From: Clostridiales bacterium UBA1446
GTDB lineage: Bacteria > Bacillota > Clostridia > Oscillospirales > Oscillospiraceae
NCBI GenBank assembly: GCA_002329245.1
Contig: DCTG01000012.1
Location: forward strand, 3,152 to 15,043
Length of the DNA: 11,892 bases
Reading direction: 5' to 3'
Below are positions 1 through 11,892 of this stretch, one piece after another. The notes beneath the pieces are model-generated. The model did not search any database and was not told the origin of the DNA. It saw nothing but the letters and a program-made list of their open reading frames with translations. Positions within the stretch are counted from its first letter, which is position 1. Each line of letters begins with the position of its first letter. A program made the position numbers and the translations under genes.

Positions 1-18
1 GGCGATATTCGCTGACGG

Positions 19-40
19 AAAAATCGCCCTGTATCAGGGG
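19..40 (-). terminator. Possible weak intrinsic terminator after the symporter/microprotein genes
   Basis: On the minus strand a short hairpin (CCCTG-ATA-CAGGG, arms 35-39 and 27-31) is followed by CGATTTTT (19-26). It lies 22 bases past the stop of the 38-residue microprotein, where the left operon should end. The stem is only 5 bp with a 3-base loop, so it could be coincidental, and the window edge hides what follows. Confidence 0.3.
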
Positions 41-61
41 GAGAACGATATTATTTGGTCC

Positions 62-178
62 TTATTTGGGATCGTCCCTCTTGTCTTCCACTGATTTTCC
101 TTTTCCGGCCAGCGCAATCGCGGCGAGAACAACCATGAGAATGGTTAAGTACAGGGGGACGGCATCCGCTAAAGCCAT
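62..178 (-). CDS. 38-residue single-pass membrane microprotein
   Basis: This tiny gene encodes MALADAVPLYLTILMVVLAA followed by IALAGKGKSVEDKRDDPK. A perfect Shine-Dalgarno AAGGAGGT (185-192) sits 6 bases before the ATG and supports real translation. Residues about 8-24 form one hydrophobic helix, and the C-terminal tail is hydrophilic with several Lys/Arg. The positive-inside rule therefore predicts N-outside, C-inside. It is the last gene of the symporter group, 61 bases after the 35-residue microprotein. Small single-helix subunits are known beside some secondary transporters, for example MetS with MetP, so an accessory role for the symporter is plausible. I recognise no family. The function is inferred from context only; that it is translated is fairly well supported. 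Confidence 0.72.
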   Translation of the reverse strand: MALADAVPLYLTILMVVLAAIALAGKGKSVEDKRDDPK

Positions 179-239
179 ACTACTACCTCCTTAACAAATC
201 AGTTCCGTTTTTATGCAGGGACGTTAAACCATCGTCCCC

Positions 240-347
240 TTACCATTTCTGCCCCCGGTGGGAAGCCCGCCAGAGCAGGTATATGATCAGTGTAATAACC
301 TCCGCAAAGATAATCTGGAATATGATCAGCTGAAGCACCCAACCCAT
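240..347 (-). CDS. 35-residue single-pass membrane microprotein
   Basis: The product is MGWVLQLIIFQIIFAEVITL followed by IIYLLWRASHRGQKW. A perfect Shine-Dalgarno AAGGAGGT (354-361) lies 6 bases before the ATG, with the same spacing and the same AAGGAGGTAG core as the next microprotein downstream. Residues about 3-26 are one long hydrophobic helix with a single acidic residue (Glu16) inside it. The tail RASHRGQKW is basic, predicting N-outside, C-inside. It begins 26 bases after the symporter stop codon, so it is almost certainly co-transcribed. It could be an accessory subunit or stabiliser of the symporter. It does not resemble the 38-residue neighbour in sequence. No known family was recognised. 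Confidence 0.75.
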   Translation of the reverse strand: MGWVLQLIIFQIIFAEVITLIIYLLWRASHRGQKW

Positions 348-373
348 TTCGCTACCTCCTTATTCCCTAATTC

Positions 374-1882
374 TTAATGCGTCTGCGTTTCCAAACTGTC
401 CGAGGCCATTTTCTGCAATTCGCTCCTTCCGACAAGAAGGCCCTTTTTCCGGTCGGGCATAACAAGGGGAAGAATGACCCCGAGGACGATGGAAACGAGG
501 GTAACGGGGTATACGTTTGCGGACCAGAAGCCGTCGCCGACAAAGGCGGGCGTGGCAAAGGTCCAGATGAAGTTTACCGCAAAGGCCACCAACGTCGTAA
601 TCCATGCCGCGGACTTGCTGATGCTGAACTTGAGCCCCATAAAGTAAATGACGAACACGGGGATTCCGAACGTAAAGCACCACAGGAAAATCGGGAATAT
701 GATGGCGTTGCTGAGAGCCGGAAAAGCAAACAGCAGGGCGCAAATCAGAATGGAAATCTTCATGGTTTTCAGTTTGGTTTTATCCGACATGTTCGGCCGC
801 CAAGCGCGCTTGATGATGTCGTTTGTCAAAACGTTGGCGTTCGCCATCACGGTAGCGCCGCCTGTGGAAAGGGTGGCCGCCAGCAGGCTGATGACAAGCA
901 AGCCCACAATGGGAGCGGGAAGCGCGTCAAGCGCGAGCTGGATGGGTGCTACCTTGGCGGCGGAGGCGGGGTCCAGTTTGCTTATCACCGCAGGGATTAC
1001 AGTCGCGCAGAGCGCCATGACAATCCAGGGTATGGAGGCCAGACAGTTGATTCCGGCGCCGATAAAAATTCCCTTGCGGCAGTCCGCGTCTGTTCTGGCG
1101 GCAAAGAAGGGGGAATTCATGTTTTGGGCGACCGCACAGGCGAAGCAGTGGAGGATGGCCACCGGAATGATGATGTTTTTCAGTACGCCGGGGGAGAAGT
1201 CCACGTTCATCAGCCAGGATGCCTGACCCATGGAATTGTAAACCTGCTGGATTCCCTCCCAGCCGCCTGCGTTGGCCGCAAGCCAGCCGGTAAGCATAAA
1301 CATTGCCAGATAGGAGCCTAGGATCATCACGATCGCGTTTACAATATTCAGCCACACCATCTGAAGCATGCCGCCGAGATAGACATACGCCACGATCAGG
1401 ACAAGCGCTATTAAGATGCACCAGGGGAAAAGGGGAAGAGCTCCTCCGGTCAGGCCGTAGATTCCGACTGCGGTTGCCGTGGTTTCAGCGGCGCCGATGC
1501 CGGTCCAGGTGGCTACAGTGACGCCTGCCTGCATACGGGCGTATTTCGCGCCGAACATATGCTCCATGATCTCCGGCATGGTATTCAGACCCGTCTGCCG
1601 AACCCAGGGGCCGAACCAAAGCATCATCATGGGAAGGAAAATTCCGCCCGTGATGATGCCCCACCACATGACGGAGGCGCCGAGTCCGGGAGCGGCTTCC
1701 CACAGGGAAATGGTATGGCCGGCGCCAAGCGGGATAAGGGTAAATCCGAATGCCACCATGACCCAGCTCAGTCCGCTGCTGGCTTTTGCAAAGTCCGCGG
1801 CGCTTTTTACGCGTTTTTTGGCCCAGTAGCCAACGACCGCAATCAGTATGACATAATAAGCCAGTGCTATTGCCAATGACAT
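374..1882 (-). CDS. Sodium:solute symporter (SSS family), probable aromatic substrate or acid uptake
   Basis: This 502-residue polytopic membrane protein has the length and helix spacing of the SSS family (usually 13 helices, LeuT fold). The first helix starts at residue 3, and hydrophobic segments continue to about residue 480. The segment ISLLAATLSTGGATVMANAN (331-350) followed by VLTNDI matches the family signature in which a Ser-Thr pair (339-340) helps form the Na2 sodium site. GAGHTISLWEAAPGLG (53-68) lies in the expected broken-helix region near the substrate site. The ATG at 1882 has GAGGAGG eight bases upstream. It follows the transhydroxylase genes by a 100-base spacer containing a strong hairpin and precedes two microprotein genes. 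The substrate cannot be read from sequence. Gallate or another phenolic acid is the contextual guess; a short-chain acid product is an alternative. Confidence 0.88.
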   Translation of the reverse strand: MSLAIALAYYVILIAVVGYWAKKRVKSAADFAKASSGLSWVMVAFGFTLIPLGAGHTISLWEAAPGLGASVMWWGIITGGIFLPMMMLWFGPWVRQTGLNTMPEIMEHMFGAKYARMQAGVTVATWTGIGAAETTATAVGIYGLTGGALPLFPWCILIALVLIVAYVYLGGMLQMVWLNIVNAIVMILGSYLAMFMLTGWLAANAGGWEGIQQVYNSMGQASWLMNVDFSPGVLKNIIIPVAILHCFACAVAQNMNSPFFAARTDADCRKGIFIGAGINCLASIPWIVMALCATVIPAVISKLDPASAAKVAPIQLALDALPAPIVGLLVISLLAATLSTGGATVMANANVLTNDIIKRAWRPNMSDKTKLKTMKISILICALLFAFPALSNAIIFPIFLWCFTFGIPVFVIYFMGLKFSISKSAAWITTLVAFAVNFIWTFATPAFVGDGFWSANVYPVTLVSIVLGVILPLVMPDRKKGLLVGRSELQKMASDSLETQTH

Positions 1883-1927
1883 AGAACACCCTCCTCGTAT
1901 AATTGGATTCAGATGAATGAACTTTTT

Positions 1928-1959
1928 CGTTCCGGCGGCAGCTTCCTGCCGCCGGAACG
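1928..1959 (-). other. Perfect 14-bp intercistronic hairpin between transhydroxylase and symporter
   Basis: The arms 1928-1941 (CGTTCCGGCGGCAG) and 1946-1959 are perfectly complementary around a 4-base loop (GAAG on the minus strand). On the minus strand, the direction of the flanking genes, the stem is followed by AAAAAG rather than a T-run, so it is not a canonical Rho-independent terminator. It lies 23 bases past the small-subunit stop and 45 bases before the symporter ATG. Likely roles are stabilising the upstream mRNA end, marking a processing site, or partly terminating to lower symporter expression. The structure is certain; the function is inferred. Confidence 0.65.
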
Positions 1960-1982
1960 TGGCTCCTAGGATCGGCTGGCTG

Positions 1983-2786
1983 CTACACGGATATGGTCCC
2001 GACGTTCAATGACGTATCAAGGTATACTCTCTTCACCTCATCGCCGTTGACCGCGATGGAGTATTCGCCAGGCTCTAAGTTATCGAATTTGAAATCGCCG
2101 AAATAATTGGTTTTTTGAGAAGCCTTCACCTCCTCGCCCGTAAGGGTTACCTCCGCGTCCTCAAGGCATTCGTTGTCCCGAATCACTCCGCCGGCAATAA
2201 AAAGCTTTTCATACCGGAAGAGATTTTTGTAATAGACGTGGGCGTCTGCGTTGTAACCCGGGAGGTAGCGTTCCAATTTTTCGTCCGCTACCTTTTTTTC
2301 CATCTCGGAAGGCTCCAACGTATAAAACTGGATCGCTCCCGTGGGGCAGCTGTGCGCGCAGCGGGGTATTTCCCAGCCGTTGTCCAAAAGATGCGCGCAC
2401 ATGGTGCATTTCTGGGCCACTCCGGCATCCTCATTCCAGTAAATGGCCCCGAAAGGACAGCTGTCCACAAGCTCTTTTTTGCCCTTGGCTTTTTCTATGT
2501 CGATCAGAACGATGCCGTCGTCCCGGCGGCTGATGCAATCCGGGTGCGCGGCGATGCAGGGAGCGTTTTCGCAGTGCTGGCATGGCATGGGAAGATAGGC
2601 TACGTCGATTCTCGGGTACTGGCCGCGTTCTTTTCTCTGAATATTCATCCAGCGGTGTCCGTGCCGGGGCTGGGCTTCCGTATAGGGAGGCCAATTATTC
2701 ATGACATGTTCGTCTTTGCAGGCGATAAAACAGTTGTTGCAATCATGGCAAAGCGCGACATCGATCACCAGATAACGCTGCTTCAT
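1983..2786 (-). CDS. athS: Pyrogallol:phloroglucinol transhydroxylase, small (iron-sulfur) subunit
   Basis: This is the electron-transfer/structural subunit of the molybdenum transhydroxylase. At 267 residues it is close to the Pelobacter acidigallici subunit (about 274, from memory). C13, C16, C19 and C23 form a classic CxxCxxCxxxC motif, and C127, C130, C143 and C147 complete two clusters. C69, C72, C77 and C110 can hold a third. The four positions for the usual fourth cluster are replaced (H81, A100, K103, L106), consistent with three clusters in this enzyme. Residues about 200-267 form a beta-rich transthyretin/Cna-B-like domain (GEEVKASQKTNYFGDFKF, then EPGEYSI), a hallmark of this subunit and absent from ordinary DMSO-reductase-type beta subunits. 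The ATG follows the large-subunit stop by one base, with AGGAG inside the large-subunit gene, which implies coupled translation. There is no signal peptide, so it is cytoplasmic. Confidence 0.92.
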   Translation of the reverse strand: MKQRYLVIDVALCHDCNNCFIACKDEHVMNNWPPYTEAQPRHGHRWMNIQRKERGQYPRIDVAYLPMPCQHCENAPCIAAHPDCISRRDDGIVLIDIEKAKGKKELVDSCPFGAIYWNEDAGVAQKCTMCAHLLDNGWEIPRCAHSCPTGAIQFYTLEPSEMEKKVADEKLERYLPGYNADAHVYYKNLFRYEKLFIAGGVIRDNECLEDAEVTLTGEEVKASQKTNYFGDFKFDNLEPGEYSIAVNGDEVKRVYLDTSLNVGTISV

Positions 2787-2787
2787 G

Positions 2788-5385
2788 TTACCGATCTCCT
2801 TTCCATTTCTCTATTTCAATGAGAGAATGCTCCGTTGCCATACCGCATGCGTATTTTGAGAGGAAGCGACCGGGGCTGAGGATGTTGACGCACCCTCCGC
2901 GGTCCGGGGATTCTCCCGGTTTTCCGAGCGGCTGGTATTCGGCGGACGATTCGTAAGAATGGCACGTTCCGGGGGGAACCCGCTCCGTGACCTGCGCGGC
3001 TAAAATAACCTCTCCGCGGTCGTTAAACGCTCTCACCAGGTCTCCGTCCTTGATTCCGCGCGCTTTGGCGTCCTGCGTGTTAATGCGTATGATCCAGTAA
3101 TAATGGCCGTCCACCAGTACGCGATGGTCCTTGATGTCGTTCATGAAGGCGTCTTTGCCGTCTCCCATGGTGTGGAAGCTGAACCGCGGGTGCGGCGCGA
3201 CCATGGACAGCGGGTATTTTTTAAAGCGTTCGGTATGGTGCCCTTCCCAAGAGGGCAGATACATGGGCATAAGCGGACGTTCCTTATCGTCCGTGTCGTA
3301 GTGGCCGAATCGCTTGAGGCTGCTGGAAACAAATTCGACCTTGCCGGACTGGGTTTGAAGCCCCTTCATTCCCACGGTGTCGCTGGGGCGGATATGGGAG
3401 AGCCATCCGGGCGTATCCTGCTCCCTGCCTTCCGCAAACCAGCGGAATGCCGGCCGGGAAGGCTTTTTCTGATCGACCGGGAGCACAAAGTAACCCTTCT
3501 TAGTGAACTCCTCCCAAGTGATATATTTGGGCAGGTCCGTCGCATGGAAATACTGCTTGATCCAATCCAGTTCGTCCTTGCCTTCCGAATAGGGACCTTC
3601 CACGCCGAGACGCCGGCAGATCAGCCGGAAGATCTCGTAGTCTGATTTTGACTCGCCTAAGGGCTCGATACACTTCATCTGGAAGGTGATGATTCGGTGG
3701 TTGGGCTGGGAGTGGGAGTTTGGTATGTAACCCGAGCAGTTGGCAAACTCGCTGATATCCCAGCGTTCAAAGTTCGTGCAAGCGGGCAGGATGATGTCGG
3801 CAAACTGGGTTTCTCCCTCAAACCAGATCGCCTGGCTGACGACTATGGGAAGGTTCTTGGTGCGGTACATCTTCGCATAGCGGTTGGTTTCGCCCATGGT
3901 TCCGATATGAGGCCCGCCGTACTTGTAGTACATCTGGATGGTGGAATATCCCGGTTCGGGGTAGCGGTATTCCTTAAACTGCTGTTCGATCGCCCCGCCT
4001 ACGAATCCTTTTCCGTACCAGGGTCCGTACTTGCCGTCCATGATGCATTCGGGAATTTTCAGCCGGGGGATATGCGCGCCGGCCGGGTTGTTGATGTTGT
4101 TGGAGGACGGGCGGCTGTCCGCGCCGAACATGCGGTATACAAAATGTGCCCCGGCGGCCGAGTTGTCGCAGTCTCCCGAAATGCCGCCTTCCGCATAGCC
4201 GGGGAAGAAGATGTCCGTATCGGTGGGAGCTCCCTGCGTGGTGCTCCAGAGGTTGATGCCCGGCTTGCCGAGTCCCTGCATGGTGATAAGGGCAATCATC
4301 ATTCTGGCCCAGTCCATGCCGATCGGGCTGCGGCATGCGCCGCCCCAGCCGCCAAGCCCGCCGGCGGCAAGCATGGTCTTGTTTTTGGCCCATTCCCTTG
4401 CAAGCGCCCGGATATCGTGCGCCGGGATGCCCGTCTCATTCTCGGCCCATTCCGCGGTCTTGGGGATACCGTCGGACTGCCCCAACACATATTGGGTCCA
4501 TTCCTCAAAGCCTGTTGCGTGGGTTTCGACATATTCCTTGTCGTAGAGCCCTTCGGTCAGCCACACGTACGCGATGGCGACCGCGAGGGCGGCGTCCGTG
4601 CCGACCCGGGGCGAGAACCACTTGTCTGCGTACAGGCCCGCCGTGTGGTTGTAAAACGGGTCGATAAACACCATTTTTACCCCTAATTTTTTCAGCCACA
4701 ATCTGCGGATTGTGCTTTCATAGGCGGCGTAGATGCCGCTGTTCGTCTCCGGGTCGGAAGACCAGAAAACGATCATCGTGGTATGCTTGAGCGCGTCCTC
4801 AAGCAAGTCATCCTGTTCGGGGTTCCCCAGCCGGTGGCTGAATCCCCAGGTATGTATTCCGCCCCAGTGCCACCCCTCCCAGCTATCGGGGTTGTGGTCC
4901 GCATAGGTAATGCCGACTGTGTTCATGAAGCGAAAGAGCGCGCTGTGGCGGTATCCGACGTTGCCCCACAGATGGTGGGAGCTGGGCTCGGCGACAATTG
5001 CGCCGGGACCGAAATCCCGCTTGATGCGCTTGATTTCGGACGCCACAATGTCGAGGGCTTCGTCCCAGCTGATGCGGACATACCCGGACTCGCCCCGCTT
5101 CTCCTCGTTGCGCTCGCCGTTCGGATCAAAGTCAACCCGCTTGAGCGGGTACAGGATCCGCCGGTCGCTGTGAACCATAGCCTTGTAGCCGGCGGTGTAT
5201 GCGGTGTAAGTAGTTTTTCTTGGCGGGGTAAAGGTCTGTCCCCTGGCATCGATTTTCCAGGAAGCAGCGTCTTCATCAGTAAGATCCATTGGGATGACGC
5301 GTACGATTTTGTTTTCCTTTTCGTCTACGTCGACGAAAACGGGACCACCTGTAGTGGAATTGGTTTTCCGCACGTAACGATCCAT
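2788..5385 (-). CDS. athL: Pyrogallol:phloroglucinol transhydroxylase, large (molybdopterin) subunit
   Basis: This 865-residue catalytic subunit belongs to the DMSO reductase family and is predicted to bind Mo-bis-molybdopterin guanine dinucleotide. It transfers a hydroxyl from 1,2,3,5-tetrahydroxybenzene to pyrogallol, yielding phloroglucinol and regenerating the co-substrate. Active-site residues recalled from the P. acidigallici structure (H144, Y152, D174, S175 as Mo ligand, Y404, C557) all appear here at a constant offset of 7: H137, Y145, D167, S168, Y397, C550. The N-terminus has neither the cysteine cluster motif of formate dehydrogenase/nitrate reductase relatives nor a Tat signal, so the enzyme is cytoplasmic without its own Fe-S cluster, as expected. 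Residues about 690-860 are the C-terminal dinucleotide-binding domain. AGGAGG precedes the ATG. Acetylene hydratase and arsenite or polysulfide relatives are excluded by these residues and by the partner subunit. Confidence 0.94.
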   Translation of the reverse strand: MDRYVRKTNSTTGGPVFVDVDEKENKIVRVIPMDLTDEDAASWKIDARGQTFTPPRKTTYTAYTAGYKAMVHSDRRILYPLKRVDFDPNGERNEEKRGESGYVRISWDEALDIVASEIKRIKRDFGPGAIVAEPSSHHLWGNVGYRHSALFRFMNTVGITYADHNPDSWEGWHWGGIHTWGFSHRLGNPEQDDLLEDALKHTTMIVFWSSDPETNSGIYAAYESTIRRLWLKKLGVKMVFIDPFYNHTAGLYADKWFSPRVGTDAALAVAIAYVWLTEGLYDKEYVETHATGFEEWTQYVLGQSDGIPKTAEWAENETGIPAHDIRALAREWAKNKTMLAAGGLGGWGGACRSPIGMDWARMMIALITMQGLGKPGINLWSTTQGAPTDTDIFFPGYAEGGISGDCDNSAAGAHFVYRMFGADSRPSSNNINNPAGAHIPRLKIPECIMDGKYGPWYGKGFVGGAIEQQFKEYRYPEPGYSTIQMYYKYGGPHIGTMGETNRYAKMYRTKNLPIVVSQAIWFEGETQFADIILPACTNFERWDISEFANCSGYIPNSHSQPNHRIITFQMKCIEPLGESKSDYEIFRLICRRLGVEGPYSEGKDELDWIKQYFHATDLPKYITWEEFTKKGYFVLPVDQKKPSRPAFRWFAEGREQDTPGWLSHIRPSDTVGMKGLQTQSGKVEFVSSSLKRFGHYDTDDKERPLMPMYLPSWEGHHTERFKKYPLSMVAPHPRFSFHTMGDGKDAFMNDIKDHRVLVDGHYYWIIRINTQDAKARGIKDGDLVRAFNDRGEVILAAQVTERVPPGTCHSYESSAEYQPLGKPGESPDRGGCVNILSPGRFLSKYACGMATEHSLIEIEKWKGDR

Positions 5386-5454
5386 GTTTCTCCTCCTTTT
5401 GCTGCTACAGTTTTCCTTTGGCCGAGATTACATTTTATTTCTATAGCTGCGGTT

Positions 5455-5483
5455 ATTTTACTCTAAAGGCAAAAGAAGGTAAA
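5455..5483 (-). promoter_or_regulatory. Predicted sigma-70-type promoter of the transhydroxylase operon
   Basis: On the minus strand TTTACC (5478-5483) and TAAAAT (5455-5460) are separated by 17 bases, matching the -35 consensus at 4 of 6 and the -10 consensus at 5 of 6. Transcription would start near 5448, giving a leader of about 63 bases before the large-subunit ATG. A weaker alternative is TTTAGA (5462-5467) with TATAGA (5440-5445), spacing 16. An imperfect -35 fits a promoter that needs an activator such as the adjacent LysR protein. Confidence 0.48.
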
Positions 5484-5492
5484 ATGAAGAAT

Positions 5493-5519
5493 ATTGATAG
5501 ATTCATCTAATAAATTGAT
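5493..5519. promoter_or_regulatory. Candidate LysR operator upstream of the transhydroxylase promoter
   Basis: A dyad TAGAT-TC-ATCTA (5498-5509) is flanked by two direct copies of ATTGAT (5493-5498 and 5514-5519) exactly 21 bases, about two helical turns, apart. Its centre is near -56 relative to the predicted start, close to where LysR-type activators bind (usually around -65). The LysR gene immediately upstream is the obvious candidate regulator. The spacing is 12 bases rather than the textbook T-N11-A, so this is a suggestion only. Confidence 0.35.
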
Positions 5520-5615
5520 TCGTTTGCGTCCCGTTTTGCATATATTGAACAATCCGCGCGCGTGGGGAAGTGGATTTCGAGCGCTCCGCGCCCCGGGCGG
5601 AGCGGTATTCTGACC

Positions 5616-5655
5616 CGAAAACAATGAACCTGAAACCTTTTATGGTTTCAGGTTC
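5616..5655 (-). terminator. Intrinsic terminator of the regulator genes
   Basis: A perfect 12-bp stem (GAACCTGAAACC, 5626-5637, with 5644-5655) and a 6-base loop are followed on the minus strand by ATTGTTTTCG. It starts 36 bases after the LysR stop codon. It should separate regulator transcription from the transhydroxylase promoter downstream. The T-tract is interrupted, so some read-through is possible. On the plus strand the stem is followed by TTCTTCC, but no plus-strand gene is nearby. Confidence 0.7.
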
Positions 5656-5690
5656 TTCTTCCGTATTGTATTTCGTGGAATAATTTTGGA

Positions 5691-6614
5691 TTACGTTTCC
5701 GCCGCCCGGGCGGGACAGATCTGACCGTCCGAAACCGGGATTCCCATTTCGGCCAAAAACAGCTTAATGCACGGGTTGGTATTCTCCTTGTTCCATGCAA
5801 GTCCCATGTAGTGCGTGGTGTCTTCGTCCACTATGTCGATGAACTTGAGAGAGGGATTCACAAAGACTTTCCAGCAGCTGGGCAGGATCGTAAAGCCGTA
5901 ACCGATTTCCGTGAGCATGTTCACCGTACGCTCGTCGTTGATATCGTCGATGATGCGCGGCATGAACCCTTTTTTCAAATATAGCTGCATACTCATGTCG
6001 TATAAGCCGGGATTGGTTCTGTGGTTCATAAGAATGAGCGGCTCGTCCTTAAACTGCGCAAGACTAGCCCTTTCCAGCCCGGACAGCGGGTGGTCCTCGG
6101 AGACCACAATCTGAAGCTTTTCCTTATAAATGGGATGCCAGTTGATGCGCTCCTGATCCGTTATGGTAGCGATACGGGCAAAGCCGACATCTAAGTCAAA
6201 ATTCTCGAGCTGCCGCGCAATCCGGATATCGTGATAGGAATTGTACTTGACACGGATATGCGGGTATTTCTGGGAGAAGGATTTGAACTTTTCAAACATG
6301 CACCAGGCTACCGGCACAAAAACATATCCGACCGACATGGAACCAGTGATTCCGGACAGCCTGAGCTGGACGTTGGTAATGGTGTCGCGCTCCATCGCCG
6401 TAATTTTATAGGCATGATCCAAAAGCAGCTCTCCGACGGGAGTGAGTACGATGGATTGCTTGTTGCGGAAAAAAAGCTTGGTGTTCAGCTCTTTTTCCAG
6501 CTCCGCTATGTTATGGCTGACGGCAGATTGCACAAGGTGGAGTTTTTCTGCGGCTTCGGTAAAACTGAGATATTCGGCCACAGCGATAAAACAGCGCAAT
6601 TGACGAAGCTCCAT
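5691..6614 (-). CDS. LysR-family transcriptional regulator, probable activator of the transhydroxylase operon
   Basis: The 307-residue length is typical for the family. Residues 1-60 form the winged helix-turn-helix: MELRQLRCFIAVAEYLSFTE, then AAEKLHLVQSAVSHNIAELE with the recognition helix around QSAVSHNI. TPVGELLLDHA marks the linker helix. Residues about 90-300 form the periplasmic-binding-like effector domain. LysR proteins of aromatic degradation (the CatR/BenM type) bind a pathway intermediate and activate nearby promoters. Here the gene is directly upstream of, and co-oriented with, the transhydroxylase genes, which fits activation by pyrogallol, phloroglucinol or a related phenol. The ATG at 6614 has AGGAGG upstream; other in-frame starts lack this. 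The gene is 30 bases after the TetR gene, so the two are probably co-transcribed. The effector is inferred. Confidence 0.9.
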   Translation of the reverse strand: MELRQLRCFIAVAEYLSFTEAAEKLHLVQSAVSHNIAELEKELNTKLFFRNKQSIVLTPVGELLLDHAYKITAMERDTITNVQLRLSGITGSMSVGYVFVPVAWCMFEKFKSFSQKYPHIRVKYNSYHDIRIARQLENFDLDVGFARIATITDQERINWHPIYKEKLQIVVSEDHPLSGLERASLAQFKDEPLILMNHRTNPGLYDMSMQLYLKKGFMPRIIDDINDERTVNMLTEIGYGFTILPSCWKVFVNPSLKFIDIVDEDTTHYMGLAWNKENTNPCIKLFLAEMGIPVSDGQICPARAAET

Positions 6615-6644
6615 GGCGGTTCCTCCTTTTCCCTCAAAGTCCTC

Positions 6645-7271
6645 CTATGGTCCGGCGGTTTTTTTCACGCTCGCTATCATGCCGAGGATCTGTTCGATTT
6701 GATCCCTGCTGCCCGTTCGGAAATCTTCGGCTACTCTTCCGGAGTATTCATGGATTCCGCAATGCACGCTGTAGCGGGAGCATTGCCTGGTAATGTAAGC
6801 GACAAACATCTCGGCAATCAGCGCCGCGTCTTCCGTCCGGATGGCGTCGGGGTAAATCTCGCCTAAATAGTCTATGAAAAAGCTTTTCATGGAGTCGGGG
6901 ATTAACCACATGTATTTATGGATTTTGGGGAAATAAGCTCCTTCGTTGATGAAGATTCTGAGGATATGAATATGCCGGAAGATGAGCTTAAAAAAGATAT
7001 CCGCTATCGTCGCGATGTCCTTGGATATGTTGCTTCCGCCGAGCTTGGAACGGATGCGCTCCTCAGGCACCTCGATCCTGTGAAAGCGTTCCACCACGCT
7101 GTAAAACAGGTTTTCCTTGTTTTCAAAGTGGCGGAAAACCGTAATGGCGTTACACCCGGCCGCTTCGCTGATTTCTTTGATTGTGGCGTCCGCATAACCC
7201 TTCAGGGAAAAAACCAGCAGCGCCTGCTCTAAAATCCGATCATGGATAGGCGAAGCGTTTTTTTCACCCAT
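6645..7271 (-). CDS. TetR-family transcriptional regulator
   Basis: This 208-residue protein has the family's N-terminal DNA-binding domain: ILEQALLVFSLKGYADATIK (residues about 14-33), then EISEAAGCNAITVFRHFENK ending in the hallmark F-R-H-F-E-N-K-E-N-L-F segment. The C-terminal two thirds are helical and lack recognisable sequence motifs, as usual for the ligand-binding domain of TetR repressors. Its start has GGAGG in the expected place. It lies 63 bases after the HxlR gene and 30 bases before the LysR gene, so all three regulators may form one transcript. The target and ligand are unknown. Candidates are its own group, the right-hand operon, or a phenol-efflux function elsewhere. Confidence 0.88.
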   Translation of the reverse strand: MGEKNASPIHDRILEQALLVFSLKGYADATIKEISEAAGCNAITVFRHFENKENLFYSVVERFHRIEVPEERIRSKLGGSNISKDIATIADIFFKLIFRHIHILRIFINEGAYFPKIHKYMWLIPDSMKSFFIDYLGEIYPDAIRTEDAALIAEMFVAYITRQCSRYSVHCGIHEYSGRVAEDFRTGSRDQIEQILGMIASVKKTAGP

Positions 7272-7334
7272 TCTTACTATCCTCCGATCCGCCCGGACGG
7301 AACCGGTTTAAACTGCGAAGACTGCGGCCCGGGT

Positions 7335-7775
7335 CTAATCCGGCGTCTCGTTAGGGAAAAAGTTGTTATGCTCCATAATGTCTCTTAAAACGTCCACATA
7401 CTTTTTAGATTTATGCACGGCAAAAGCATCCGGATCGATGGGGATTCCCAGCTCGTTCATTCTCCGGATTCCCCAGATATAAAGAATATCCAGCGCCGGG
7501 ACCAGTTCTTCGGCAACCGGCGTGAGGACATACTCCACCTTTACCGGAATGGTCTCGTACTGGATTCGGCGCACAAGCCCGTCTTCCACCAGCTCCTTAA
7601 GCTGCTGGCTAAATACCTTTTCCGAGATCGGAAGCGTTTTGAGCGTATTGTTAAAACGGATGCTACCATACGTATGGATATGATGCAGGATCGTCATTTT
7701 CCATTTTCCGAACAGACAATGACGTATGTAGTGGTACGGATTCACGCCGCCGGTGCGCATTGTTTTCAAGGACAT
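7335..7775 (-). CDS. HxlR-family winged-helix transcriptional regulator
   Basis: This 146-residue protein carries the HxlR/MarR-like winged helix. FGKWKMTILHHIHTYGSIRF (22-41) is the family's conserved G-K-W...I-L...R-F block. ISEKVFSQQLKELVEDGLVR is the recognition helix leading to the wing, and VEYVLTP begins the last conserved block. Family members often sense electrophiles or quinones through a cysteine located 11 residues before G-K-W. Here that position is Asn12, and the only cysteine is Cys20. It is divergent from the phloroglucinol operon with a 368-base shared control region, and its own promoter overlaps a repeated motif, suggesting it regulates itself and the right-hand operon. The start is supported by GAGGTG upstream. 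The effector is not known. Confidence 0.88.
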   Translation of the reverse strand: MSLKTMRTGGVNPYHYIRHCLFGKWKMTILHHIHTYGSIRFNNTLKTLPISEKVFSQQLKELVEDGLVRRIQYETIPVKVEYVLTPVAEELVPALDILYIWGIRRMNELGIPIDPDAFAVHKSKKYVDVLRDIMEHNNFFPNETPD

Positions 7776-7808
7776 ACGATTTCACCTCATTTGCGTTGAA
7801 TCAGAATT

Positions 7809-7836
7809 AGAATATCAAATTGCATAATATTGTCAA
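7809..7836 (-). promoter_or_regulatory. Promoter of the HxlR regulator gene
   Basis: On the minus strand a perfect -35 TTGACA (7831-7836) is followed after 16 bases by TATTCT (7809-7814), matching 4 of 6 in the -10. Transcription would start near 7802, giving a leader of about 27 bases before the ATG at 7775. The spacer contains one copy of the repeated motif, so a protein bound there would block this promoter. Confidence 0.65.
7816..7830 (+). repeat. Candidate operator, copy 1 of a 15-base direct repeat
   Basis: CAAATTGCATAATAT here matches CAAATTGTATAATAT at 7908-7922 with one mismatch. This copy fills the spacer of the HxlR promoter, and the other overlaps a plus-strand TATAAT. Placement over both divergent promoters is what an autoregulated operator looks like. 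The region is AT-rich, so chance similarity is possible. Confidence 0.45.
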
Positions 7837-7907
7837 CATGGAAATTAAAAGAACTGTATTATGTTATAAAAGTATTCTTTCGTAGCTTCATACAAATATT
7901 GCAAGGA

Positions 7908-7922
7908 CAAATTGTATAATAT
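7908..7922 (+). repeat. Candidate operator, copy 2 of a 15-base direct repeat
   Basis: CAAATTGTATAATAT differs at one position from the copy 92 bases upstream. It contains a perfect -10 hexamer TATAAT (7915-7920), but the -35 at proper spacing is poor. This could be a weak or activator-dependent promoter for the leader ORF and right-hand operon, controlled by whatever binds the repeat. Confidence 0.42.
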
Positions 7923-7951
7923 GCATATCATGGAAAAAATAGGAGGGGGAA

Positions 7952-8005
7952 TTGAAGATATTTCCTTCTGTTTTTTGTGCATATCGTTCAACTGAAAGAC
8001 ACTAA
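7952..8005 (+). CDS. Possible 17-residue leader peptide with TTG start
   Basis: A near-perfect ribosome binding site AGGAGGGGG (7941-7949) stands in the control region with no long ORF behind it. The only well-placed start is TTG at 7952, giving MKIFPSVFCAYRSTERH then TAA. It lies downstream of the possible TATAAT at 7915-7920 and upstream of the cupin promoter. If real it could be a leader peptide whose translation affects the operon. There is no clear terminator hairpin after it, only a T-rich run near 8006-8012. The composition is unremarkable, and the site could be a fortuitous purine run. Confidence 0.25.
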   Translation: MKIFPSVFCAYRSTERH

Positions 8006-8057
8006 CTTTTTTGATACTACCATACAAATTTGTTACTTAATCACAAAATTATCCGTA

Positions 8058-8086
8058 TTGTGGAAGAAAATTCGTGCAATTATAAT
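8058..8086 (+). promoter_or_regulatory. Promoter of the phloroglucinol degradation operon
   Basis: TTGTGG (8058-8063) and a perfect TATAAT (8081-8086) are 17 bases apart. Transcription would begin near 8093, about 50 bases before the cupin ATG. The -35 matches only the first three consensus bases. The -10 lies in a palindromic AT stretch (AATTAT-A-ATAATT, 8078-8090). Confidence 0.58.
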
Positions 8087-8143
8087 AATTTTAATCGACG
8101 GAGTAGGCTTGTCGGTAAACGCAACAAGAAAGGATGGTATTAC

Positions 8144-8491
8144 ATGGTCAAGCGTACGCTGGAGGAACTAAAGCCCTATGACGCGCCCGGTCATTTTAAG
8201 ATGACCGCGATGAGAATTCACGGAAAGGAGGAAACCGGAGCGGAGAAGTTCTGGGTCGGTCTTTCGACGTTTCTTCCCCAGGGCGGAGCGGAATACGCTT
8301 ACGAGGACAGCCCGCTGGAAAAATTCTACTATGTTTTGGAAGGCGAAGTCACCGTAACGGACCGCGAAGGAGAGAAATACGTTATCCACGCCGGGGAGTC
8401 TATTTCGTTCAGGCCCTTTGAGGGGCGTTCGCTTCTCAACGAAAGCAACCGTGCGGCCACGATGTTGGTCGTGATAAGTTATCCCTTATAA
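8144..8491 (+). CDS. Small single-domain cupin protein lacking the usual metal-binding histidines
   Basis: This is a 115-residue beta-barrel protein. The ATG at 8144 is preferred because AAGAAAGGA precedes it; the upstream in-frame extension to 8030 is AT-rich, covers the promoter and has no ribosome binding site. The cupin core is clear: [12 protein letters not shown] (62-73), then [13 protein letters not shown] (82-94). In metal cupins motif 1 carries H-x-H and motif 2 a further His. Here the H-x-H positions are Tyr51 and Tyr53, and the motif 2 position is about Ser96. A classical iron/manganese dioxygenase is therefore unlikely. As the first gene of the operon it might bind a polyphenol or diketone, act as a metal-free isomerase, or be regulatory. 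The real role is unknown. Confidence 0.82.
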
Positions 8492-8522
8492 ACAGGGGAA
8501 ATGGAAACGGGAGGAAAATGAC

Positions 8523-9311
8523 ATGGCAGTGGTGGAGAAAGATTTCGTGGAGTCCCTGTTTTCAATCCGGGATAAGGTGGCCCTTGTCACCGGCGCAACC
8601 GGTGCGCTCGGCTCCGTGATATCCATGGGCTTCGGGTACGCGGGGGCAAAGGTGGTGCTGACCGGCCGGAATGAGAAGAAATTGGAGGAACTTGCCGCGC
8701 AGATGAAGGAAGCGGGGCTTGCATGCGCTTACATTGCCGGCGATCCGGCCGTGGAAGAGGATGTGAAAAAAATCATCTCCTTTGCGGTGGATACATACGG
8801 CGAGCTCAATATTTTGATTACCTGCCACGGACTGAACAAGGCAAAAAGCGTGCTGGAGCAATCGCTCGAGGAATGGCAGGCTATTATGGACGCCAATACC
8901 AAGAGCGTCTATCTTCTATCCAAATACGCGGCCGAACAGATGGTGAAACAGGGGAAGGGCGGCAAGATCGTCATAACCTCCTCCGCCCGCTCCAAGCGCG
9001 GCATGAAGGGCTACACCGGCTATTCAACTTCAAAGGGAGCCGTCGACCTGATGGTGCAGTCCCTCGCCTGCGACCTTGGGCAATACAACATTCAGGTCAA
9101 CAGCTTCAACCCCACGGTGTTCCGTTCCGACCTCACGGAATGGATGTTCCATGACGACAACGTTTACCAGAACTTTCTCAAAAGGCTTCCGATCGGACGT
9201 TTGGGCGAACCGGCGGACTTCATCGGCATGGCAATCTTTTTAAGCTCCAATGCCTCCAACTTCTTTACCGCCTCCAATTACGCGGCCGACGGCGGTTACT
9301 GGGGGAACTGA
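8523..9311 (+). CDS. SDR-family NADPH-dependent phloroglucinol reductase (predicted)
   Basis: This 262-residue classical short-chain dehydrogenase/reductase probably reduces phloroglucinol to dihydrophloroglucinol. The Rossmann motif TGATGALG spans 23-30. Arg49 after the second strand (VVLTGRN) favours NADPH. The catalytic set is N125, S154, Y167 and K171 (YSTSK). The usual N-N-A-G stretch is replaced by T-C-H-G (100-103). SDRs of this type include gluconate 5-dehydrogenases and 3-oxoacyl-ACP reductases, and sequence alone does not fix the substrate. The assignment comes from the following genes, which encode the hydrolase, dehydrogenase and thiolytic enzyme families of the known anaerobic phloroglucinol route. 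GGAGG lies upstream of the ATG, and the gene ends 2 bases before the next start. Confidence 0.8.
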
Positions 9312-9313
9312 GC

Positions 9314-10249
9314 ATGAAAGAGCTGCGAAACGTTGTCGTTGTCGGTGCCGGCATGATGGGGAATGCGCTGGCCCAGGTGTTCGCGTCTGACCCGGGGCTG
9401 CATCTGATCCTGAAAACCCGCGCGCTGAAAAAAGACCGCTATGATCCGATCATCAGCAATCTTGACATCATGATTGCGCGCGGCGCGGCCACGGAAGCGG
9501 AAAAAGAAGCGATATTGGAGCGCATCCATTTTGTCACGGACGACGCCGAAGCGTATACAGACGCCGATTTCATCATCGAGTGCTACCCCGAGGTCATGGA
9601 GGAGAAACAGAATCTCTTTGCGCACGTGGAAAACTTCTGCCGCGACGACTGCATTCTCGCGACGAACACATCGGTGATGAGTCCGACGGAAATTTCGCTC
9701 AAATGCAGGCGGCGGGAACGGGTCGTCGGCGCACATTTCTGGAATCCGGGGCATCTGATTCCCCTGGTGGAGGTGGTAAAATCTGATTTTACTTCCGAAG
9801 AGGTGATGCAGGCAACGATTTCCCTTCTCGCGCGCGTTGGGAAAAAGCCCATTTACTGCGCCAAAGACGTGCCGGGTTTCGTGGCAAACCGGCTGCAGCA
9901 TGCCCTCTGGCGCGAGGCCTTCTACATGGTGGAAAACGGCATCGCAAGCCCCAAGACCGTGGACGACGCATGCAAATACGGTCCCGGCCTGCGCTGGCCG
10001 GTAATGGGACCCATGGAGAACAGCGACCTTGTTGGCATTGAGCTGACTTATAACATTCACAAGTATATCCTGAAGCATTTGGCGGATAATCACGAGCCGT
10101 CGCCTTTGCTGCAGGAGATGCTTGCGCGCGGAGACAACGGCTTTCGGACGGGAAAGGGCTGGCAGGAATGGACTCCGGAGCAGATGAAGGCTTCCAGCGA
10201 CGGGCTGAAGGAATACCTCATCGACTGCGCCGCGAAACAGAAAAAATAA
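9314..10249 (+). CDS. 3-hydroxyacyl-CoA-dehydrogenase-like 3-hydroxy-5-oxohexanoate dehydrogenase (predicted)
   Basis: The 311-residue protein resembles 3-hydroxyacyl-CoA dehydrogenase, L-carnitine dehydrogenase and lambda-crystallin. GAGMMG (11-16) is the dinucleotide-binding loop. Catalytic residues align with human HADH: S120 (TNTS), H141 (GAHFWNPGH), E153 and N192 (PGFVANR). The acidic residue expected at the end of strand 2 is Thr35, followed by Arg36, a change that favours NADP(H) over NAD(H). In this setting it should oxidise 3-hydroxy-5-oxohexanoate, a free acid rather than a CoA ester, to 3,5-dioxohexanoate. The ATG sits 2 bases after the reductase stop, with GGGGGA inside the reductase gene, so translation is coupled. 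A substrate other than this, such as carnitine, is not excluded by sequence alone. Confidence 0.8.
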   Translation: MKELRNVVVVGAGMMGNALAQVFASDPGLHLILKTRALKKDRYDPIISNLDIMIARGAATEAEKEAILERIHFVTDDAEAYTDADFIIECYPEVMEEKQNLFAHVENFCRDDCILATNTSVMSPTEISLKCRRRERVVGAHFWNPGHLIPLVEVVKSDFTSEEVMQATISLLARVGKKPIYCAKDVPGFVANRLQHALWREAFYMVENGIASPKTVDDACKYGPGLRWPVMGPMENSDLVGIELTYNIHKYILKHLADNHEPSPLLQEMLARGDNGFRTGKGWQEWTPEQMKASSDGLKEYLIDCAAKQKK

Positions 10250-10310
10250 CCTGCGGCAGAGAACCGCTGAAGAAAATTCATACCATAACTAACAAATGGA
10301 GGAACGCATC

Positions 10311-11249
10311 ATGGGAAAGAAAGTATTTGTGGACCTGACACATCCATTCAGCGCGGAGATTCCCCGATGGCCGTATTTTGACAAGCCGGTCATCGACAAT
10401 ACGCATACCATGGCAAAGGGAGGCGTTCTGACGCAGAAGATCACCTGCACGATGCACACCGGCACGCATTGCGACGCGCCCCGTCATGTGATGGAAATCG
10501 AGTTTGACGGCAGGAGAGCCCGCTATACGCATGAAATGCCGCTGGACGCATATACCGGAGACGCCGTTTGCCTTCCCATTGAAATCGAGCGCTGGGGACT
10601 CATCGGCCCGAAACACCTGGAAGCCGCCTGTGAAAAGGTGGGGATCAGGCCGGAAGAGCTGGAGGGAATGGTCGTCTGCCTCAATACCGGCATGCACCGC
10701 AAGTTTGACGACAGCAAGGAATACTATCATTATTCCTGCGGCACCGGCGTCGACGCGGGGAGGTGGTTTGTCGCACACAAGGTAAAGTGCGTCGCCATGG
10801 ATATGCAGGCGTTGGATCATCCGCTTCACACCGCGATGGGCAACAACGGCATGACTCGGATGAATTTGCTCGGCGCGTCGGGACGACCGATTACGGAAGA
10901 GTACATCGAGCAGTTCGGGGAAGAGGCGTACGCCGAATTTGACAAGTTCACGTACATCAAAGTTCACGGCAAAGAGGCGTATGATAAAAAATACGGAGAT
11001 CTGGAAGCAATTGGCAACTGGGGCACCTGGGAACCCTGTCATAAGCAGTTGTTGGGGCACGGCATTGTCGGCGTGGAAAACCTTGGCGGCGACCTGGATA
11101 AGGTCTCCGGAAAGCGTTTCCGCTTTTACTGCTTCCCGATTCGCTGGTACATGGGCGACGGCTCTATGGCCCGCTGCGTCGCGGAAATCGACGAAGACGA
11201 TCTCAACGACGTGCCCGACAGGGTCTATACATACGGAGGCAATATCTGA
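10311..11249 (+). CDS. Cyclase-family metal-dependent hydrolase, predicted dihydrophloroglucinol cyclohydrolase
   Basis: This 312-residue member of the cyclase/kynurenine formamidase superfamily is predicted to open the dihydrophloroglucinol ring hydrolytically to 3-hydroxy-5-oxohexanoate. The signature HTGTHCDAPRH (49-59) supplies metal ligands H49, H53, D55 and the acid/base H59. H244 and E256 (GVENLGG) correspond in order and spacing to the distal His/Glu pair of KynB. It is longer than the 210-260 residues usual for the family because of roughly 60 extra residues at about 178-240. The ATG at 10311 is chosen because GGAGG (10298-10302) lies 8 bases upstream; the ATG at 10296 would overlap this site. 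The gene follows the dehydrogenase by 61 bases without an evident terminator. Confidence 0.82.
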   Translation: MGKKVFVDLTHPFSAEIPRWPYFDKPVIDNTHTMAKGGVLTQKITCTMHTGTHCDAPRHVMEIEFDGRRARYTHEMPLDAYTGDAVCLPIEIERWGLIGPKHLEAACEKVGIRPEELEGMVVCLNTGMHRKFDDSKEYYHYSCGTGVDAGRWFVAHKVKCVAMDMQALDHPLHTAMGNNGMTRMNLLGASGRPITEEYIEQFGEEAYAEFDKFTYIKVHGKEAYDKKYGDLEAIGNWGTWEPCHKQLLGHGIVGVENLGGDLDKVSGKRFRFYCFPIRWYMGDGSMARCVAEIDEDDLNDVPDRVYTYGGNI

Positions 11250-11354
11250 GGGTACATGCAAAGGCCGCGGGGCGAATGCGGCGCGCAAGACACCGTTGGG
11301 ATATAAATCATATTAACCATATTAAGGCTTTGCCCGAAAAAGGAGGATCGAATC

Positions 11355-11892
11355 ATGCCGAATCACAAAACAAAACGCATCATAACGGTCGCTACCACAG
11401 GCGCCTGGCCCACGAAGGAAAACACCCCAAACGTGCCTATTGAGCCGCATGAAATCGCGCTGGAAATCTACAATTGCTGGAAGGAAGGCGCGGCCATCGC
11501 GCATATTCACTGCCGGGACGACAACGGGCGGGCAGCCATGATTTTTGAAAAGTTTGAAGAGGTTGTCACCCTCCTGCGCACCAAGTACGCCGACTGCGAC
11601 ATCATTTTGAACATCACCACCTCGGGCGGCATCAATCTCAAGGAAGAAGACAGGCTTCGCCCCTTCTATGAGCTCAGACCCGAAATGTGCTCCTATGACT
11701 GCGGAACCATGAACTGGCTGCATACCGGCGTATTCGAAAACAACCCGCAGTTTTTGGAAAAGTTGGGAAAGATGGCAAAAGAGGCGGGCGTCAAACCGGA
11801 AATCGAGGTCTTCGACCCGGGGATGATATACAACGCCCAGTACTATATCAAGAAGGGCATTTTGGATACCCCGGCCCACTTCCAGTTCTGCA
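11355..11892 (+). CDS. BKACE-family enzyme, predicted triacetate acetoacetate-lyase (partial, runs off the window)
   Basis: The gene is open from ATG 11355, with AGGAGG (11341-11346) upstream, to the window end: 179 complete codons of a family usually 270-310 long. HIHCRD (50-55) carries the zinc-binding H-x-H pair (H50, H52) of beta-keto acid cleavage enzymes, the third ligand being a Glu that would lie beyond the window. NITTSGG near 90 and KPEIEVFDPGM near 150 are further family blocks. These enzymes exchange acetyl-CoA with a beta-keto acid to give acetoacetate and a new acyl-CoA. With triacetate as substrate the products are acetoacetate and acetoacetyl-CoA, the end of the phloroglucinol route. 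Other 3-keto acids such as 3-keto-5-aminohexanoate are the main alternative; context argues for triacetate. Confidence 0.85.
   Translation, partial: MPNHKTKRIITVATTGAWPTKENTPNVPIEPHEIALEIYNCWKEGAAIAHIHCRDDNGRAAMIFEKFEEVVTLLRTKYADCDIILNITTSGGINLKEEDRLRPFYELRPEMCSYDCGTMNWLHTGVFENNPQFLEKLGKMAKEAGVKPEIEVFDPGMIYNAQYYIKKGILDTPAHFQFC

Follow-up and report, generated by a model that had tools for sequence, protein, structure and literature searches.

The locus examined here raises the question of whether one short stretch of a clostridial genome could hold a whole anaerobic route from pyrogallol, a product of tannin degradation, to acetoacetyl-CoA, and which of its genes belong to that route. It lies in Clostridiales bacterium UBA1446 (GenBank assembly GCA_002329245.1, contig DCTG01000012.1, positions 3,152 to 15,043 of the forward strand), and the window, meaning the whole stretch of DNA that was analysed, is 11,892 nucleotides long. 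An original prediction, made by a model from the sequence, had placed a transhydroxylase and the enzymes of phloroglucinol breakdown in it. From our analysis, the window very probably encodes a cluster for the anaerobic conversion of pyrogallol to acetoacetate and acetoacetyl-CoA, with a small cupin as a frequent partner of the lower pathway, that is, of the steps from phloroglucinol onwards. This lower pathway has already been published, together with its enzymes and wide distribution (Zhou et al. 2023, PMC10470551); the window cluster is a further member, and the cupin is the part for which we found no published description.

Genes were named from open reading frames, Pfam matches and matches to solved structures, giving the following predicted features.

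374..1882, minus strand: SSF sodium:solute symporter (PF00474, 54.6 bits)
1983..2786, minus strand: transhydroxylase small (iron-sulfur) subunit (4v4c_B, 324 bits, residues 1-258; PF13247)
2788..5385, minus strand: transhydroxylase large (molybdopterin) subunit (4v4c_A, 1358 bits, residues 3-865; PF21423)
5626..5655, minus strand: predicted terminator-like hairpin at the boundary between regulators and transhydroxylase (12-pair stem, 6 GC pairs)
5691..6614, minus strand: LysR-family regulator (PF00126 and PF03466)
6645..7271, minus strand: TetR-family regulator (PF00440)
7335..7775, minus strand: HxlR-family regulator (PF01638)
8144..8491, plus strand: small single-domain cupin, uncharacterised (PF07883; ATG at 8144)
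8523..9311, plus strand: phloroglucinol reductase (PGR), SDR family (5g4k, 349 bits; TGRNEKKL cofactor loop; tree)
9314..10249, plus strand: triacetate-forming dehydrogenase (TfD), an (S)-3-hydroxy-5-oxohexanoate dehydrogenase (PF02737 and PF00725; Ser120, His141, Asn192)
10311..11249, plus strand: dihydrophloroglucinol cyclohydrolase (DPGC), cyclase family (PF04199; Trp20, Tyr22)
11355..11892, plus strand: triacetate acetoacetate-lyase (TAL), BKACE family, first 179 residues (PF05853, 200.8 bits; Trp18)

Predicted enzymes and route

The transhydroxylase reaction, from pyrogallol to phloroglucinol, has been shown for Pelobacter acidigallici, and both subunits of that enzyme (4v4c) have counterparts in the window. 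The large subunit aligns with 4v4c_A over nearly its full length, with a score about five-fold that of the next entry (264 bits), while the next entry for the small subunit, after 4v4c_B, stands at 87 bits. Ser168 of the large subunit aligns with chain Ser175 of 4v4c_A, which we take to be the Mo-ligand serine, and is invariant across 17 aligned sequences, the window included. These matches support the assignment of the two predicted subunits to a pyrogallol-phloroglucinol transhydroxylase. The Pelobacter protein is a single enzyme serving the upper step only, whereas the window adds the lower pathway. Among viral contigs, no transhydroxylase relative was confirmed.

For the lower half, the closest structural match of the window SDR protein is 5g4k (next entry 127 bits), which we take to be the characterised phloroglucinol reductase of Clostridium sp. 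ATCC BAA-442, and the TGRNEKKL loop is common to both. A phloroglucinol reductase structure from this strain is described in PMC10470551, where the cofactor-loop motif is printed as TR(S/N); the window protein and 5g4k have TGRN. Quick FastTree trees place the window PGR in one clade with its Eubacterium oxidoreducens counterpart (support 0.998) and the window BKACE among DPGC-linked BKACEs (support 0.977). Clustering with enzymes of another pathway was thus not seen, although with 52 rows each, nearly all from loci fetched through DPGC, the trees are a weak test.

Diagnostic residues agree with these names. The cyclase has Trp20 and Tyr22 as in CsDPGC, pocket residues that separate DPGC from isatin hydrolase (PMC10470551), and its database relatives are close, the listed 120 of 567 being 80-93% identical. 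Trp18 of TAL aligns with a Glu of the lysine-pathway BKACE 2y7d; this Glu binds the 5-amino group, and its replacement by Trp has been tied to triacetate use (PMC10470551). A motif search found the catalytic Ser120, His141 and Asn192 of TfD all present. According to the same source, TfD keeps the catalytic Ser, His and Asn, and is without the CoA-binding Lys56 and Asn221 of 3-hydroxybutyryl-CoA dehydrogenase; the window protein has an Arg near what would be the Asn221 position. TfD homologues 43-59% identical occur near DPGC-type genes. The SDR, 3-hydroxyacyl-CoA-dehydrogenase-type, cyclase and BKACE proteins are thereby supported as putative PGR, TfD, DPGC and TAL. The genes named by the original prediction (both transhydroxylase subunits, these four enzymes, a transporter and three regulators) are present as open frames with strong matches, and its mapping of the enzymes to successive phloroglucinol steps is supported by the agreement of matches and diagnostic residues with the Clostridium scatologenes enzymes (PMC10470551).

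In the route that we propose, the symporter would import the aromatic compound and the molybdenum transhydroxylase would convert pyrogallol to phloroglucinol, which PGR would reduce with NADPH to dihydrophloroglucinol. DPGC would then open the ring to give (S)-3-hydroxy-5-oxohexanoate, TfD would oxidise this to triacetate, and TAL would combine triacetate with acetyl-CoA to yield acetoacetate and acetoacetyl-CoA. Weighing against a complete route, the TAL gene is cut by the window end after residue 179 and its 3′ part lies outside; the BKACE gene of the original prediction is thus present and truncated. The predicted link to short-chain acids likewise holds as far as acetoacetate and acetoacetyl-CoA, where the window stops, with further enzymes lying outside it: no thiolase or CoA-transferase was found among the window open frames given to Pfam.

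The four lower reactions were shown with C. scatologenes enzymes and reconstituted in vitro without a cupin (Zhou et al. 2023, PMC10470551). The C. scatologenes phloroglucinol cluster resembles the window in having PGR, DPGC, TfD and TAL with the diagnostic residues, and a transporter and regulator nearby; compared with that cluster as the available text describes it, the window has the transhydroxylase in the same cluster, an SSF transporter, three regulators and the cupin. The word ‘cupin’ has no occurrence in the main text of PMC10470551. Eubacterium oxidoreducens DSM 3217 shares with the window the transhydroxylase genes, the phloroglucinol cluster, a 69% identical HxlR regulator and a diverged cupin, and differs in carrying the transhydroxylase genes and the phloroglucinol cluster on separate contigs. 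Transhydroxylase operons have been reported in Chloroflexi (PMC3971608), and the available text of PMC12203004 treats PGR and transhydroxylase as two ways of handling phloroglucinol within one community. We found no description of a cupin in the phloroglucinol pathway, or of the joint cluster, in the literature searched, which is not proof of absence as most subscription journals and supplements lay outside it. A pyrogallol to acetoacetyl-CoA route in one locus makes candidate tannin-fermenting microbes easy to spot in metagenomes.

One variant of the lower cluster was seen in genome G292 (L134:6241 onwards), with no close TfD in the fetched 18 kb and a 31% identical 3-hydroxyacyl-CoA dehydrogenase relative directly before the cupin; this relative possibly takes the place of TfD.

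Linkage of the cupin to the lower pathway

The gene list of the original prediction was incomplete in one respect: the plus-strand block is headed by the cupin (8144-8491), which it did not mention. Its occurrence was counted in transhydroxylase loci obtained by scanning GTDB species genomes with the 17-sequence alignment, keeping the best 80 of 433 relatives. Locus content was scored as homologues above 55 bits, a threshold that includes diverged 30-40% SDR and BKACE forms, and many flanks are cut by contig ends. Cupin relatives occur in 12 of the 19 loci with at least two lower enzymes, in none of the 4 with one, and in none of the 57 with none. At genome level, among the 49 genomes that contribute 50 of the 80 loci, 41 have a cupin match (about E ≤ 1e-16), each accompanied by a DPGC-type match; the two are within 6 kb of each other in 33 of the 49, the largest gap being 2,956 bases.

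To remove the transhydroxylase bias, 291 genomes were drawn evenly from the class of Eubacterium oxidoreducens. DPGC (E ≤ 1e-60) was found in eight and the cupin (E ≤ 1e-8) in eight, and these are the same eight, including the centre Eubacterium oxidoreducens; in each of them cupin and DPGC share a contig and are no more than 3.9 kb apart. Only one of the seven genomes besides the centre has a transhydroxylase (E ≤ 1e-150), and the cupin therefore follows the phloroglucinol module. A tie of the cupin to the transhydroxylase was rejected, six of these seven cupin genomes having no transhydroxylase match at that threshold. A phylum draw of G038 (an actinobacterial metagenome-assembled genome; 296 genomes, two with DPGC) added one new genome, with the cupin 2 kb from DPGC, and a draw around G023 returned the centre genome only.

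Records from a plasmid collection widen the picture. Cupin matches were present in 31 records, 15 of them listed; 10 of those 15 were examined, two of these being reached via their DPGC match. A DPGC-type cyclase adjoins the cupin in six of the 10 (Acetoanaerobium noterae, Novosphingobium pentaromativorans, Aminobacter MSH1, Pacificitalea, Sinorhizobium BG8 and Rhizorhabdus wittichii) and not in the other four. The Acetoanaerobium noterae record is unannotated, and a translated search gave the order cupin-PGR-TfD-DPGC-TAL, with the cupin in two pieces. Found via DPGC alone were Mycobacterium riyadhense, where a cupin adjoins the cyclase, and Rhizobium ACO-34A, whose cupin, a more distant one, lies some 3 kb off. 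The cupin is kept where its partners differ, with a short DPGC form about 40% identical or a BKACE type about 30% identical. Neither DPGC nor TfD lies in the stretch fetched around the other four cupins, which come from Skermanella, Bosea, Rhizobium bangladeshense and Shinella plasmids (cupin frames L159:6001-6390, L160:6001-6351, L161:6001-6336 and L162:6001-6333) and form a second context: genes annotated as zinc-binding alcohol dehydrogenase, SDR and BKACE are nearby in all four, and an intradiol dioxygenase (PF00775 and PF04444) in three, Rhizobium bangladeshense being without it.

Several counts weigh against a fixed partnership. Among the 47 DPGC genomes of the transhydroxylase set, eight have the cupin on another contig or farther off and six have no cupin match at about E ≤ 1e-16. 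A phylum draw of G041 (a deltaproteobacterial metagenome-assembled genome; 297 genomes) gave a DPGC-type match (E ≤ 1e-25) in 11, nine of them new; in these nine the cupin is near DPGC in four, elsewhere (E ≤ 1e-50) in two, weak in two and absent at E ≤ 1e-8 in one. The two genomes with weak matches, G547 and G591, each encode TAL, PGR and TfD next to a full-length DPGC (E about 1e-193) but no cupin at that place, evidence against a strict requirement for the cupin.

Possible role of the cupin

The structure model of the cupin has a confidence (pLDDT) of 93.2, and its fold neighbours are TM1459, the polyketide cyclase RemF and KdgF, a shared fold that shows no function. The canonical ligand set of metal-dependent cupins, which we take to be HxH...E/H...H, would fall by counting at positions 54, 56, 60 and 95. 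No His is found at any of these in 18 of 18 aligned rows, Glu is found at position 54 in two rows including the window, and there is no Glu at 60. None of the places that match TM1459 ligands by counting (three of these ligands being taken from mutant names) carries a His in the window cupin. The cupin thus does not appear to have the canonical metal-ligand set, and other ligands are possible. At the usual metal positions it has Lys60 and Arg95; His17, Tyr62, Glu93, Arg95 and Asn99 are invariant in all 18 rows, and Lys60 is present in 15.

These features led us to a tentative and rather doubtful proposal from sequence comparison, that the cupins are a hitherto unnamed family of metal-free keto-enol tautomerases, which would speed a step so far regarded as spontaneous and serve both the DPGC ring opening of the phloroglucinol route and an intradiol ring-cleavage route likewise ending in a BKACE. 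The substrate would be a 1,3-dicarbonyl intermediate, and Lys60, Glu93 and Arg95 are predicted to line the barrel. We propose this because ring opening in either context would yield an enolisable 1,3-dicarbonyl or beta-keto acid, because a BKACE is present in both, and because a basic pocket of Lys60 and Arg95 with Glu93 as acid, and no usual metal site, would suit enolate stabilisation. If true, the published four-enzyme phloroglucinol pathway would have a conserved fifth enzyme. Three points weigh against it. Lys60 and Arg95 were placed in the barrel by counting from motifs and not from coordinates; the window cupin carries Thr at position 42, which is His in 98% of 132 rows; and the lower pathway ran in vitro without a cupin (PMC10470551) and so can do without one. 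No metal-independent cupin tautomerase was found in the literature searched.

At least as likely as a tautomerase is a non-catalytic binding or sensor protein, a possible role in which the cupin would buffer enolic intermediates, help DPGC to get manganese or modulate a regulator. The missing His at the usual ligand positions and the in vitro result both suit such a protein, and one of the fold-search matches, the auxin-binding protein 1lr5, is itself a binding protein. The invariant residues, with Lys60 in most rows, look more like an active site, however, and the gene sits among the enzyme genes of the operon. A further, unlikely reading is a metal-dependent cupin enzyme whose unusual ligands would be, for instance, His17, His42 and Glu93, and whose substrate would be a side product, perhaps triacetic acid lactone or acetylacetone; residue 42 is not conserved across the wider cupin family, being His in seven of 18 rows and Thr in the window. 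The cupin marks a concrete gap in the pathway, which was reconstituted without it.

Automatic names for this cupin need care, as its best model in NCBIfam, NF050094 (named beta-D-galactosidase), gives 70.8 bits for the window open reading frame 8030-8491 and 92.8 bits for the L041 cupin (5978-6313), far below the cut-off of 175. A cupin-like protein, HcdF, is named in a coumarin operon (PMC7913881). A fusion of the cupin to another enzyme is not claimed: some cupins stand within long open frames, and in the five such loci examined the extra residues precede the cupin's own Met and form no recognisable protein.

Upper half, transcription units and regulators

Although the transhydroxylase probably acts on pyrogallol, another polyhydroxybenzene such as hydroxyhydroquinone could be its substrate. 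Several genomes have at least two transhydroxylase-type genes, suggesting more than one substrate in the family, and hydroxyhydroquinone transhydroxylation in Pelobacter massiliensis is named in the title of a reference. We regard this alternative as quite improbable, given the 1358-bit match to the solved pyrogallol enzyme over residues 3-865; the adjoining phloroglucinol pathway genes also require phloroglucinol, whatever the starting compound. An SSS-type symporter homologue is present in 25 of the 80 transhydroxylase loci, and the window symporter likely imports pyrogallol, gallate or a related aromatic.

The conserved co-occurrence that the original prediction had suggested looking for was found in the same loci. 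All four lower enzymes have homologues in 10 of the 80, two or three in nine, one in four and none in 57. The record titles of the ten complete loci (L024, L041, L053, L056, L061, L063, L068, L069, L070 and L077) name Clostridiales, Desulfosporosinus, Desulfobacterales and other Deltaproteobacteria, Anaerolineales and other Chloroflexi, and Actinobacteria. In L024, from a Clostridiales Family XIII metagenome-assembled genome, the genes for the transhydroxylase large and small subunits, cupin, TfD, PGR, DPGC and TAL follow in that order on a single strand. A DPGC-type match is present in 47 of the 49 transhydroxylase genomes, at E ≤ 1e-60 in 32; the upper and lower halves therefore usually occur in the same genome, in a minority of cases at one locus. 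That the divergent halves are two unrelated pathways, neighbours by chance, is extremely improbable: the 57 transhydroxylase loci without a lower-pathway gene in their flanks and the different regulators (HxlR matching phloroglucinol cluster L141, TetR matching transhydroxylase loci) would fit it, but contig ends truncate many flanks of the 80 loci, the ten joint loci carry titles from several phyla, and the product of the upper half is the substrate of the lower.

Transhydroxylase loci elsewhere showed further features. UbiD- and UbiX-type families each occur near transhydroxylases in six loci, and molybdenum cofactor genes are found there too (UbiD, UbiX-type flavoprotein and MoeA/MoaA/MoaC at L012:15031-16545, L028:1779-2372, L055:11420-13631 and L047:4911-5441), consistent with gallate decarboxylation as a source and with Mo cofactor supply. 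Two large-subunit genes per locus are seen in L008, L028, L050, L051 and others, and 17 of the 80 loci have at least two matches, some of which may be gene pieces. Genome G820, from the phylum draw of G038, has 13 transhydroxylase-type large-subunit matches (E ≤ 1e-150) in 3.3 Mb and two DPGC copies on different contigs. In four loci from Clostridiales Family XIII metagenome-assembled genomes (L014, L020, L032 and L062), a TfD-like gene and a 35-39% identical cyclase precede a transhydroxylase-type large subunit, with no recognisable small subunit within the locus and with Tyr22 missing from the cyclase in L014 and L062; this set is perhaps a module for another polyhydroxybenzene.

The plus-strand spacings from cupin through TAL are 31, 2, 61 and 105 bases, so that cupin-PGR-TfD-DPGC-TAL is likely one operon. 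The two divergent blocks of the original prediction hold by strand, while the minus strand is probably two transcription units because the 12-pair hairpin (5626-5655) separates the regulators from the transhydroxylase. The window has 15 terminator-like sites against a shuffle mean of 14.4, which is no excess, and the hairpin call rests on stem length and position. Three transcription units are therefore probable: transhydroxylase with symporter (minus strand), the three regulators (minus strand) and the cupin operon (plus strand). No tRNA genes and no Rfam matches at gathering scores were found in the window, and a near search of the whole window against the plasmid collection gave no match.

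Each regulator has its own distribution. LysR homologues reach 64% identity in transhydroxylase loci L003 and L014 and occur at any identity in 20 of the 80 loci, and TetR homologues 44-47% identical occur in seven. HxlR has its 69% homologue in the Eubacterium oxidoreducens phloroglucinol cluster and none in the 80 transhydroxylase loci. We infer HxlR as the likely regulator of the lower operon, with TetR or LysR acting on the upper.

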